Assembly: GCA_937958985.1 (NCBI GenBank)
Contig: CALGLV010000009.1
Coordinates: forward strand, 62,001-126,000
Direction: 5' to 3'
From: an uncultured Aquimarina sp.
GTDB taxonomy: Bacteria > Bacteroidota > Bacteroidia > Flavobacteriales > Flavobacteriaceae
DNA: 64,000 nucleotides
Each line of letters begins with the position of its first letter. Position 1 is the first letter of the stretch. This document shows positions 12,958-16,763 of this stretch, piece after piece. The position numbers were made by a program, and so were the translations under genes. The notes below the pieces were generated by a model. It saw only the letters and a program-made list of their open reading frames with translations. It did not search any database and had not been told where the DNA came from.

Positions 12958-13674
12958 TCAACTATTTTTCATCCCCCAAAGGTATAAAAGGCCGGTACTT
13001 ATAGCTATTGCAAAACTTAATAAAGTACCTATTAAAACATATTCGGTTAGCTTTCGGTCTTTGGATTTTGACAGGTCTCCAAATCTGAAAACAGATTTTG
13101 CTGTTAATAAAAAGCCTATAGCTCCCCATTGATTTAGGATTACAAAACAAAGCACAAAAAGACGTTCTAAAATACCAATATATTTACCTGCTTGCTTTAA
13201 TGATTTGTTAGGACTGTTTTCTTCTAGTTTCCATTTTCCCATAATAACCTTCATAAATACCGACGATACAAAGGTTACATTCAATATAGAAAACAATAAA
13301 AATAAGTTTTTCGAGGTGTTTAAAAATTCAAAATTAAGTTCAAATCCCGTATAACTTAGCGTTACAATTAATAGTATTAATAAGTGTACTAGTTGATCTA
13401 TTATAAATAAAGACCGTGTGTTTTTTTTAGTTTCAAAGTACATTTTCAAAACATCAACAATACCATGAGTTATTAATATAGCTACAATTCCTACCCAATA
13501 GTTGAAATCAAAACCAAGTAATACAATCAATGCAATTGCATGTATTGCAAGGTGTACATACAAAAACTTAGATCGAATTTTATTTTCCTGTTTGCTTTTA
13601 ACCCATTTGTTAGATTGAAAAACAAAATCTCCCAATATATGTGCAATCAATAGTTTTAGTCCGAATAAAATCAT
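12958..13674 (-). CDS. DUF3307 family membrane protein
   Basis: A 238-residue integral membrane protein. It opens with LKLLIAHILGDFVFQSNKWVKSK, the DUF3307 signature (hydrophobic helix with HxxGDFxxQ). About six further hydrophobic segments follow. Its function is unknown. Its start lies two bases after the satD stop on the same strand, so the pair is one transcription unit. DUF3307-SatD pairs recur in other bacteria as far as I recall. It converges on the secreted unknown with an 18-base gap. Confidence 0.87.
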   Translation of the reverse strand: MILFGLKLLIAHILGDFVFQSNKWVKSKQENKIRSKFLYVHLAIHAIALIVLLGFDFNYWVGIVAILITHGIVDVLKMYFETKKNTRSLFIIDQLVHLLILLIVTLSYTGFELNFEFLNTSKNLFLLFSILNVTFVSSVFMKVIMGKWKLEENSPNKSLKQAGKYIGILERLFVLCFVILNQWGAIGFLLTAKSVFRFGDLSKSKDRKLTEYVLIGTLLSFAIAISTGLLYLWGMKNS

Positions 13675-13676
13675 TT

Positions 13677-14270
13677 TTATGGAATATGCTTTAGGTAATA
13701 TTGATTCAATTTTAATATTTCGTCAAAACCACCTCTGCTAAGTAACTCACTTACATTGCTTTGTGATTTATTAAGCAATTTAGCCAATTCTTTTTGATTT
13801 TTTTTAGGGTTTTCTATAGCTGTCGTTATCGCTTCAGCAACTGCGGGTGTCCAATTATTAATAGTTAACGCACTTAAATGAAGCATTAAATTTATAGTTT
13901 CATTAAAAAGGGTATCATTTGTAGCTATTGCCAAATAGTGCTTGTTAAGTTGTTCAAAACAGTTTCCTGAGTTGATATAAGCATTGCCATTAGATTCGCT
14001 TATTGTATTACTCACATGCGATACTTCACCCAAGCCAATAGCTATTCGAACGTCTAATCCTTTAAATTGTTTTAGTTTGGCCTTTATGTGTAATGAAGTA
14101 AGTAGAGCGCTCTTAGGTGCTATTGCAAGTTGAAAACTATCGCCCCTAAAAATTTCCCAATCATTAGGTACTGTTCCATAAATAGTAAGTACTTCTTTTA
14201 ACGAAACCAACCAACTATTTACGTCGTGTTCTCTTGAATTTACAATATCACCAGTTAATATTGCGATCAT
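13677..14270 (-). CDS. SatD family protein: cyclase-fold-like domain plus helix-turn-helix
   Basis: A 197-residue SatD family protein. It begins MIAILTGDIVNSR, the family signature. Three blocks look like a class III nucleotidyl cyclase: TGDIVNSR (6-13, D8), FRGDSFQLAIA (41-51, D44) and VRIAIGLGEV (74-83). Their order and spacing match the two metal-binding aspartates and the RIGIxxG strand of adenylate cyclases. A helix-turn-helix follows at about 159-177 (QKELAKLLNKSQSNVSELL). The cyclase resemblance is my inference; the family is usually listed without a function. It is upstream of and coupled to DUF3307, and three palindromes precede it, which suggests it represses its own operon. Confidence 0.85.
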   Translation of the reverse strand: MIAILTGDIVNSREHDVNSWLVSLKEVLTIYGTVPNDWEIFRGDSFQLAIAPKSALLTSLHIKAKLKQFKGLDVRIAIGLGEVSHVSNTISESNGNAYINSGNCFEQLNKHYLAIATNDTLFNETINLMLHLSALTINNWTPAVAEAITTAIENPKKNQKELAKLLNKSQSNVSELLSRGGFDEILKLNQYYLKHIP

Positions 14271-14304
14271 AATAAGGTAGTATTAGTGAAACTATTTCAA
14301 TAAA

Positions 14305-14382
14305 TATATCGTATTATAGTACGATATACAAAAATATCGGCTTATAATACGATATTTATGATTATCGGCTTAAAAAACGATA
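14305..14382. promoter_or_regulatory. Three palindromic operators with an exact 28-bp period upstream of satD
   Basis: Three 20-bp units of form TATCG-N10-CGATA lie at 14307-14326, 14335-14354 and 14363-14382. Their starts are exactly 28 bp apart and the eight-base gaps between units are equal. The first unit is the most symmetric, with nine-base arms TATATCGTA and TACGATATA. Six half-sites therefore alternate at 15- and 13-bp steps. The array lies between satD and gldFG and is the only upstream DNA satD has. The likely binder is the helix-turn-helix of SatD. Confidence 0.75.
14329..14336 (-). promoter_or_regulatory. Candidate satD promoter -7 element
   Basis: On the minus strand this reads TATTTTTG, matching TAnnTTTG. 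It falls in the gap between the first and second palindromes, with about 55 bases to the satD start codon, so a protein bound to the array would cover it. A -33 TTTG was not found at the usual distance. Confidence 0.4.
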
Positions 14383-14390
14383 ATTAAACC

Positions 14391-16763
14391 TTATTTAGTA
14401 AATTTTATGCGTCTGTTTAAATAGAATAACGAATACAACAGAGCTATAAATAAAAGAGGCAAAATAAGTACTGTCCACTGCCAAAAGCTTTTGTCGGTAC
14501 TAACTTTAGTAAGGTTGAGTAAAGGTATTTGCAATTGCTTTGCTTTTAAGGCTACCAAGCCTTTATCTTCTAATAAATAATTTACCGTATTTAGTAAAAA
14601 TTCTTTATTACCGTATTGGCGTTTGCTAATAGGGTCGTAGCCTAAAGGAAGGGGAGTACCTTTGGAGGCTTCATTTTTAATAACATCACCGTCGGATATT
14701 AATACAAGACTTCCTTTTTGAGTATCTGTTATAAAGTTATCGTAGTCAAATGGTAAAATTCTGTTTTTATAAGCGCTTTTAATAGGGCCTTCTAAAAGAA
14801 CACCTAAAACTTGCTCTTTTGTGGTATAGTATTCTTTAGGTTTGGGGGTAGTAATTTTATTTAAGCTTAGTTCTGCGGGAACACCTCTTAATTTTGTTAG
14901 TGGACTTGTGGTTAAAAGAGTTGTTTTAATAACCTTATTTTTTAATAATTCTATAGGACTACTAAAATTGAATTTTACAGCTTCTATATTTTTAGTAATA
15001 ATGTGATCATTACCTACTGCTAAGGTTGAAAAACCCCAGTTGTAAGGTAAATATTGAGTATTTTCTCCTTCACCTTCAGCTAATACTATAGGGGCACTGT
15101 AATAATCATCAATTAACAAAGGATTAATTCTAGCTCCATAAGCAAAAAAGAAATCATTTAACTTTAAGTCGTTAATCCAAGTAAGGGTTTTAAAATTAGG
15201 ATTGTTAAAAATACTATCCTTTTCAGCATTAACCATGTCAATTAAATGCAATTGCTTATTCCCTTGTAAAAGATGCTGATCTAAAATTAATTTTTGCGTT
15301 TCAGAAAAGCTACGAGTGGGCTTAGCATTAATTAGTAAATCGTATTTAAGTAATTCTTTTAACTCTTGTTTAGGTGTACTAGAATTCGTATTTATTGTAA
15401 TAGGACGTACCGTATATTTTTGTTGAAGACTTCTTAAAAAGTCAAGAATATAAATGTCCTTAAGTTGCTCGTTCCCTTTAAGAATCGCTATTTTTTTAGT
15501 GCTTTTTGCAGTTAATTGTTTTAGAATATTAGTAAATGCATATTCCAGGTTTTGAATAGATTCTGTAGTACGTTCTTCTGTGGAAGCCCCCAATCTATTT
15601 TTTAATAAAGGAACTTTAATACTTTTATCCTTGTAGTACATAATAGCCCAAGGAAGTACAATTTCCTTTTTTAAAGCGCCTTCAAATTGAGTACTTACTT
15701 CGGCAGGAGTAACCCCTAGTTTTTTTAATTGCTGTAAGTTTTGATTTCGGAGCTCAATAGGCTCTAAAGGGTTTACAACACTAAACGCAACTAACGGATT
15801 TACCGAACTAAAGCTTTCTAGCAATTGCAGTGTTTCGCGTTGTAAGCGTTTAAATTCGGGAGGGAGTTCGCCTGCGAGTAATACATCTATAACAATAGGC
15901 GTATTAATTGGTAATAAAATATGTTGTGAGGTTTCAGAAAGGCTAAAGCGTTTATCTTTCGTTAAATCAAAACGGTAATGAGTAACTACGCCTAAGGTTC
16001 CAAATAATACAATTCCTGCAATAATTAAAAGCGTGGTTTTATTAAAAAAAACGGTTTTCTGGATGCTAAAAATAGTAGCTAAAATAAAGAGCGCAGTAAG
16101 GCATAAAAAATAAATAACATCTCGAGTATCTATAACCCCTTCACTTATTCTAGAATAGTGGTAGTTAATACCTAAAACATCCCACGAAATATATTTTTGT
16201 AGTATGGGAATATTTTCAAAACCTATGTAAAATATAAAGCATCCCAATATAGCAAGTATTAAAGCTATAGTTTGGTTTTTAGTCAAGCTAGAAGTAAAGA
16301 TTCCTATAGCTGTAAAGGATGTTAATAAAAGCAATAAAGCAATATAGGAGCCCATAATGCTACCTAAATCAATGTTTCCTTGGGGTTGTGCTAATTGAGA
16401 TATGGCAAAAACGTATATAAGAGAAGGCAATAAGGCAATAATTCCAATGGTGATAACACCTAAAAATTTGCCGAAAATTAATTTGAAAATACTAATAGGT
16501 TTCGTCAACAATAACTCTAAAGTACCTTGTTTACTTTCTTCAGCAAAAGTATGCATACTAATTGCAGGTATCAAAAAAGTAAAAAGCCACGGTGTAAGCT
16601 CAAAAAAAGAAGCTAAACTAGCAAAACCACTATCGGGGATATTAAACGAACCTTCTAAAACCCATAAAAATAGGCCTGTAAAAATGTAAAAACTGGCTAA
16701 AAAAATAAAGCCAATAGCAGTAGAAAAAAAATAGTGTAGTTCCTTTTTAAGCAGTGCAATCAT
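14391..16763 (-). CDS. gldFG: Fused GldF-GldG gliding motility ABC transporter protein
   Basis: One uninterrupted 790-residue ORF holds two proteins that are separate in Flavobacterium johnsoniae. Residues 1-240 are GldF, an ABC-2 permease with six membrane segments (about 12-36, 57-76, 101-121, 138-158, 165-184, 217-236). From about 241 the GldG part begins with its own membrane helix (243-261), then YRFDLTKDKRFSLSE, a long extracytoplasmic Gldg/IFT52-like domain, and a C-terminal helix (about 761-781) ending in basic residues. The joined permease would keep the normal GldG topology. The ATPase GldA is not in the window. The gene follows the DUF62 gene by 72 bases on the same strand. Confidence 0.9.
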   Translation of the reverse strand: MIALLKKELHYFFSTAIGFIFLASFYIFTGLFLWVLEGSFNIPDSGFASLASFFELTPWLFTFLIPAISMHTFAEESKQGTLELLLTKPISIFKLIFGKFLGVITIGIIALLPSLIYVFAISQLAQPQGNIDLGSIMGSYIALLLLLTSFTAIGIFTSSLTKNQTIALILAILGCFIFYIGFENIPILQKYISWDVLGINYHYSRISEGVIDTRDVIYFLCLTALFILATIFSIQKTVFFNKTTLLIIAGIVLFGTLGVVTHYRFDLTKDKRFSLSETSQHILLPINTPIVIDVLLAGELPPEFKRLQRETLQLLESFSSVNPLVAFSVVNPLEPIELRNQNLQQLKKLGVTPAEVSTQFEGALKKEIVLPWAIMYYKDKSIKVPLLKNRLGASTEERTTESIQNLEYAFTNILKQLTAKSTKKIAILKGNEQLKDIYILDFLRSLQQKYTVRPITINTNSSTPKQELKELLKYDLLINAKPTRSFSETQKLILDQHLLQGNKQLHLIDMVNAEKDSIFNNPNFKTLTWINDLKLNDFFFAYGARINPLLIDDYYSAPIVLAEGEGENTQYLPYNWGFSTLAVGNDHIITKNIEAVKFNFSSPIELLKNKVIKTTLLTTSPLTKLRGVPAELSLNKITTPKPKEYYTTKEQVLGVLLEGPIKSAYKNRILPFDYDNFITDTQKGSLVLISDGDVIKNEASKGTPLPLGYDPISKRQYGNKEFLLNTVNYLLEDKGLVALKAKQLQIPLLNLTKVSTDKSFWQWTVLILPLLFIALLYSLFYLNRRIKFTK

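Follow-up and report, generated by a model that had tools for sequence, protein, structure and literature searches.

What does a protein named for acid tolerance do when its gene follows an array of palindromes and precedes the gene of a membrane protein? This is the question raised by satD in a 64,000-nucleotide stretch of Aquimarina DNA (the window); the features of the locus are collected in Table 1. The preliminary description had read SatD as a nucleotidyl-cyclase-fold transcription factor controlling its own operon, an observation that is right and understated: to that first reading we add the geometry of the operator array across phyla, a recognition code, the true common domain of the membrane partner and a hint of an antitoxin-like role. 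The explanation that we favour, with a probability of about 0.7, is that SatD is a cyclase-fold autorepressor that controls the membrane protein, probably via a bound nucleotide. A widespread family named for acid tolerance now has the look of cyclase-fold regulators of transcription whose DNA code can be read: a single residue is E, Q or K where the half-site has CG/CT, AG or CC, respectively.

Table 1. Features of the satD locus, in window coordinates.
Feature	Position	Strand	Remarks
Partner membrane protein	12958..13674	(-)	238 aa; reading frame starts 2 nt past the satD stop
Partner C-terminal membrane domain, residues 159-238	12961..13200	(-)	common to all aligned partners; without Pfam match
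Partner DUF3307 domain, residues 6-125	13300..13659	(-)	PF11750, E 1.9e-32; conserved H/D in helices
satD	13677..14270	(-)	197 aa; N-terminal domain of predicted nucleotidyl-cyclase/palm fold and C-terminal helix-turn-helix (model, Foldseek, profiles)
SatD predicted DNA-binding domain, residues 142-195	13686..13847	(-)	model helices and weak helix-turn-helix matches
E175 codon, recognition helix 170-179	13746..13748	(-)	residue covarying with the operator word
SatD cyclase-fold domain, residues 1-118	13917..14270	(-)	AlphaFold2 pLDDT 95.8, Foldseek, hhalign against class III cyclases
D44 codon, second putative metal aspartate	14139..14141	(-)	conserved in 228/229 aligned relatives
D8 codon, first putative metal aspartate	14247..14249	(-)	conserved in 227/229 aligned relatives
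Operator palindrome 1, nearest satD	14307..14326		20 nt, candidate site
Candidate promoter -7 box TATTTTTG (TAnnTTTG)	14329..14336	(-)	consensus match only; lies, as in many relatives, 8 nt from a palindrome centre (palindrome 2)
Operator palindrome 2	14335..14354		20 nt, 28 nt further, candidate site
Operator palindrome 3	14363..14382		20 nt, 28 nt further, candidate site

The Pfam SatD model (PF16264) matches residues 6-180 of the window protein with E 2.7e-6 and 27.6 bits, the cut-off being 29; the SatDs of genomes G190 and G196, 55% identical to it, pass with 36.5 and 34.8 bits, and 122 of the 142 aligned SatD sequences match at E ≤0.1. The window protein represents a divergent flavobacterial subtype, in which GDSFQ and ESNGxAF replace GDEFQ and GMDGPAF. 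SatD takes its name from secretion and acid tolerance, and the title of the original sat study reportedly credits Ffh with the acid role. That SatD itself is an acid-tolerance factor, as the name and some annotation have it and as passages of three papers repeat (PMC11323703, PMC10326533, PMC10210942), is hardly credible, as we saw no feature of the protein or of its neighbourhood that suggests acid. Among the matches listed from the open-licence literature, as far as the excerpts go, we found no fold, binding site, mechanism or established function for SatD; the table of a S. suis paper carries it as a 'DNA-binding protein', with nothing further in the excerpt (PMC12005413), and two other papers touch on it briefly.

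The three cyclase-like blocks noticed at the outset, TGDIVNSR, FRGDSFQLA and VRIAIGLGEV, are indeed present at residues 6-13, 41-49 and 74-83 of the 197-residue reading frame. An AlphaFold2 model built on 142 aligned sequences (pLDDT 95.8, pTM 0.92) shows a beta-alpha-beta-beta-alpha-beta order, followed by further helices and the helix-turn-helix. D8 is part of the first strand (residues 2-10), and the turn that joins strands 38-41 and 45-50 contains G43-D44. A Foldseek search with this model returned the palm or cyclase fold that the preliminary description had predicted: the 50 listed of 1031 matches are almost all of cyclase or palm type, many with probability 1.00, and at their head are the class III cyclase Ma1120, GTP cyclohydrolase III, a light-regulated cyclase, GGDEF, Cas10/Cmr2 and a cyclic UMP synthase; none of these 50 has E ≤0.001, the best being 1.9e-3. 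In profile comparisons with hhalign against 17 class III and 17 GGDEF domains, SatD scored 82.9% with class III (E 9.3e-6) and 53.1% with GGDEF, and 26 control families taken from satD neighbourhoods scored at most 8.0% each; a profile of GDEFQ-type SatDs alone (10 sequences) scored about 10% with class III or GGDEF. SatD therefore resembles the class III cyclases (PF00211, e.g. Ma1120) in its predicted fold, in both aspartates and in an RxxIGxG-like strand. It differs from them in that the sequence link is weak, hhalign bringing D8 and the RIAIGLG strand into register and leaving the D44 block out of it, in that catalytic and substrate residues are not identifiable, and in having one such domain followed by a helix-turn-helix. 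At E up to 1, the window SatD matches neither the class III cyclase model PF00211 nor the GGDEF model PF00990; GGDEF is absent among the 25 families listed, of 103 Pfam families, for a scan of the 142 members, and in the PDB class III cyclases appear as sequence relatives at E 0.07 or weaker, the best rows being helix-turn-helix proteins.

In an alignment of 229 SatDs (122 genus and family loci, 30 phylum loci and 77 of 80 cross-phylum loci), D8 is kept in 227 and S12, G43 and D44 in 228 each, so that both aspartates singled out earlier proved nearly invariant, although they could have a structural role instead of binding metal. Sensing or making of a nucleotide is plausible, and the N-terminal domain most likely binds a nucleotide with Mg2+. 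For flavobacterial SatDs, sensing appears more likely than making because column 102, an arginine in 105 of 107 non-flavobacterial proteins, has become a glycine in all but one of the 122 flavobacterial sequences. The residues that choose the substrate and stabilise the transition state in class III cyclases, as we take those motifs to be, have no clear counterpart in this subtype. It is also conceivable, if doubtful, that the cyclase fold is a mere dimerisation scaffold, a role that the GGDEF-like domain may have in PucR/CdaR regulators, and that SatD responds to another signal or to none. Of known proteins, these regulators come closest in joining a cyclase-type fold to a helix-turn-helix at the C-terminus: in the excerpt seen, PucR-type MabR has a GGDEF-like fold that has lost its motif, together with a globin sensor domain (PMC11617747), and BAD_0249 (3onq) is among the listed Foldseek matches of SatD. 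However, a pure scaffold would need neither the metal aspartates nor the glycine before the second one, which SatD keeps in 227-228 of 229 sequences, and SatD differs further in its length of about 200 residues and in its nearly obligate membrane partner. SatD may show how nucleotide signalling folds turned into transcription factors.

The three palindromes reported directly upstream of satD were recovered as 20-nt elements spanning 14307-14382 with a period of exactly 28 nt. Their pattern, TATCG-N10-CGATA, occurs three times in the 64-kb window against an expected 0.01, and the whole genome holds 11 exact places, three of them at satD. A wider regulon was considered and rejected, the satD sites being the sole cluster among the 11; when one mismatch was allowed, the genome held 78 places against 144 for a reversed control pattern, so single one-mismatch sites are meaningless.

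The array is common to much of the family. The best 20-nt direct repeat in the upstream region scores at least 16 at 101 of 121 family loci; its two copies lie 28 nt apart at 82 of these, 29 at 7, 56-57 at 9 and some other distance at 3; eight of 242 dinucleotide shuffles score as high, none at 28 or 29 and one at 57. Across phyla, the same score is reached in 35 of 78 regions (14 at 28, 14 at 29, 3 at 57-58 and 4 at other lags) and in 2 of 156 shuffles. A scan of 30 loci from the phylum, which allowed periods of 27-30 and had no shuffle control, found arrays above threshold in 21, with a period of 29 in 18 and 28 in 3. No array exceeded the consensus threshold at 22 of 121 family, 9 of 30 phylum and 32 of 77 cross-phylum loci. 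The operator words are TATCG, TATTAG, TATTCC and TATCTG, also TATAAG, in flavobacteria, and TTCAACC or TTAAACC and GTGAAGC elsewhere, with GTTCGCC in a haloarchaeon; across phyla the words vary and the geometry is constant.

Which protein reads these words is suggested by covariation. The helix-turn-helix said to follow the cyclase-like half is represented by weak matches to such domains and by helices 159-166 and 170-179 of the model, the latter carrying residue 175. Among family loci with an array consensus of at least 0.75 (99 of 121), residue 175 is E in 25 of the 27 that have C[GT] after TAT (the two exceptions have A), Q in 27 of the 32 with [TA]AG (five are not Q) and K in all 15 with nCC; the other 25 have other operator words. 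E is thus paired with TATCG or TATCTG, Q with TATTAG or TATAAG and K with TATTCC, and all three pairings occur in each of the two helix-turn-helix lineages. In an association score based on 60 permutations within lineages, residue 175 ranks highest against the operator (z 20.2), the next position reaching 8.8. On a tree built from SatD residues 1-137, which lie ahead of the helix-turn-helix, residue 175 changes on 31 and the operator class on 30 of 196 branches, both changing on 20 (p 1.3e-12, with operator classes that were grouped after the residue-operator association was seen); the runner-up, position 178, belongs to that helix too. At the 45 of 77 cross-phylum loci with clear arrays, K goes with AACC or AACT in 33 and Q with AAGC in 5 of 5, and the haloarchaeal locus L231 combines E175 with GTTCGCC as a single case. 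Three loci depart from the code, AACC being paired with Q in L212 and with M in L203, and TTCGC with K in L183; three further K loci have other operator words. Since K is common at this position across phyla anyway (62 of 77), the weight of the cross-phylum comparison rests on the Q and E cases. The covariation on the tree is strong indirect evidence that SatD binds the arrays; binding to the upstream palindromes is, on this basis, strongly supported, and the claim that SatD controls its own operon gains support from a comparison that takes phylogeny into account.

The position of the array suggests what binding would do. The motif TAnnTTTG, which we take to be the Bacteroidetes -7 box, is found at 52 of 93 loci against 14 after mononucleotide shuffling, and the commonest distance between it and a palindrome centre is 8 nt (33 of 69 boxes among the matches listed); a scan for sigma-70 promoters was uninformative, with 7 found against 9.1 in shuffles. 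Because the box lies most often at this distance, in the window as well, SatD binding should cover the promoter, and since the array overlaps the promoter SatD would repress the operon, although a regular array suits an activator too. NrdR offers a parallel, being a repressor that senses nucleotides and sits on tandem palindromes with a fixed spacing; it is unlike SatD in its ATP cone fold, in its spacing and in acting on ribonucleotide reductase targets rather than on one operon of its own.

Within the genus, 13 of 66 genomes carry SatD, and within the family 164 of 299 do, the genome of the window being counted in both. In 296 genomes of the phylum, an alignment profile found it in 105 at E ≤1e-10 and in 112 at 1e-3; both SatD and the partner occur in 101, SatD only in 4, the partner only in 2 and neither in 189. 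The pair count leaves out 7 genomes with SatD weaker than E 1e-10, one genome with a partner match of E 9.8e-4 and the second pieces of split matches. The partner lies downstream at 108 of 115 SatD places in this sample, and the pairing is nearly obligate. Among 122 genus and family loci, a subset of the genomes with matches (42 returned and 80 picked down the identity range), the partner is on the same strand as satD in 120, with a spacing between a 70-nt overlap and an 80-nt gap in 118 of these. A scan of named genomes for the GDEFQ subtype, of which the best 80 of 91 loci were kept, placed it in Bacteroidota, Calditrichota, Gammaproteobacteria, Spirochaetota, Verrucomicrobiota, Chloroflexota, Fermentibacteria and Halobacteria, among others, with the partner adjacent in 70 of the 80 and a contig end accounting for some of the rest. 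The satD-partner layout recurs in many phyla and in haloarchaea. The other neighbours vary even within the genus, the commonest neighbour family occupying 33 gene places over the 122 loci. Among plasmid-borne copies, the haloarchaeal one of Halorientalis plasmid pHOS300 (L234) overlaps a gene annotated DUF3307, and in L236 (Agrobacterium pAt) and L235 (Sphingomonas) a small hypothetical reading frame takes the place of that gene.

The partner had been described as a DUF3307 membrane protein. This stands for the window, where DUF3307 covers residues 6-125; the part shared by all aligned partners is another one. DUF3307 was ruled out as the common part: 96 of 105 aligned partners have a Pfam match to it, nine, all non-flavobacterial, have none at E 0.1, and some partners from non-flavobacterial groups have only 106-115 residues. 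All 39 partners chosen for the purpose could be aligned over the C-terminal domain, in which G, E-R, K, R, L, G and S residues are invariant, and it lies outside any Pfam model in the proteins scanned; this unannotated membrane domain is probably the working part. The model of the window partner is all-helical, with no beta domain or beta-barrel; a search of the PDB with its fold gave nothing at E 0.001 and nothing convincing, a sequence search found no solved relative, and no nucleotide-binding domain was recognised in it. Within the DUF3307 helices, H12, D16, H41, H70, D74, D93 and H97 are conserved, and in the model these histidines and aspartates look like a metal site within the membrane. 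DUF3307 also stands alone in phages, and tblastn of phage records with the whole partner found none.

A hint of what the pair is for comes from Streptococcus pyogenes, where, in the excerpt seen of a meta-analysis of transposon screens, satD is present in 178 of 249 genomes and no other accessory gene ranks in the top quarter for essentiality (PMC11323703). These data may concern a set-up different from that of the window pair; an essential yet accessory gene hints at an antitoxin-like role, and the pattern is just what one would expect of a gene whose product represses or neutralises a harmful partner. In an ordinary toxin-antitoxin pair, SatD would neutralise the partner by contact through its cyclase domain and would autoregulate. 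Such a pair would agree with the two-gene operon (a 4-nt overlap at 74 of 120 loci), with palindromes of the autoregulatory kind, with the patchy presence and variable neighbours noted above and with the reported essentiality. We nevertheless find it unlikely, as the active-site pattern is conserved beyond the needs of a contact surface and the module is broad, with no phage copies found: searches of phage records with GDEFQ-type or window SatD queries yielded none, nor was any found in viral contigs. With these results and the weak PADLOC matches, an origin in phages or defence systems was rejected. The best PADLOC match of the window SatD, a weak one, is of its helix-turn-helix part to PDC-M64B (E 0.0019), the window partner has none, and residues 5-78 of the partner at locus L125 match a '2TM' effector model weakly (E 0.0056).

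If SatD is a cyclase-fold antitoxin acting on a membrane effector, its closest known parallel is Panoptes, a two-gene operon in which, according to the excerpted text, the cyclase-fold enzyme mCpol is the antitoxin of the membrane protein 2TM-beta (PMC12657230). By analogy, SatD could be an active nucleotide-making enzyme whose product restrains the partner, the helix-turn-helix adding transcriptional feedback. The nearly invariant D8 and D44 would fit, as would the enzymes that are its closest folds, a membrane partner that is obligate and almost never alone, the essentiality of satD when present in the S. pyogenes data seen, and the faint '2TM' match at L125. We regard this as improbable for several reasons: class III catalytic residues, as we presume them to be, lack a clear flavobacterial counterpart, R102 being replaced by G; the partner has no recognised nucleotide-binding domain; the window partner has no PADLOC match, and the window SatD has weak ones in its helix-turn-helix region; and no SatD turned up in the phage records searched. 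The pair also differs from Panoptes in its helix-turn-helix and operator array and in the all-helical, barrel-free window partner, and does not belong to that system.

Autorepression by a nucleotide-bound SatD accommodates these observations as follows. The gene and that of its partner would form a self-controlled module in which SatD, probably dimeric, binds palindromes repeated in tandem every 28 or 29 bp, and the nucleotide state of its N-terminal domain would set DNA binding or the assembly of the array. The purpose of the module would be to keep the amount of the membrane protein safe or dependent on conditions. Loss of SatD would then be harmful through the freed partner, and such harm would explain why satD can be essential where present and yet be absent from other strains, a reason that can be tested in S. 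pyogenes. A more ambitious version, which we offer only tentatively, is that of an ancient inhibitory-signalling or antitoxin-like module of Bacteria and Archaea: a nucleotide-making or nucleotide-sensing SatD would hold a membrane effector in check, assemble on the helical array of palindromes and control the operon, so that loss of the nucleotide state would free genes and effector together. A single chain that unites nucleotide signal, repressor and antitoxin is not known to us from any other protein of the cyclase fold.

Two SatD-partner loci each are found in genomes G413, G517, G525, G555, G563, G578, G589, G625 and G633. The operator words of the two loci in G413 differ, being of the TATCTGCT type in L259 and of the TTGAAACA type in L144, which suggests insulated paralogues; the distinct words of different SatDs could serve in orthogonal repressors. 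Just upstream of satD in the window, a reading frame of 790 aa (14391-16763, minus strand) has matches to an ABC2-type permease and to ABC_transp_aux, and presumably combines GldF-like and GldG-like parts in one chain.
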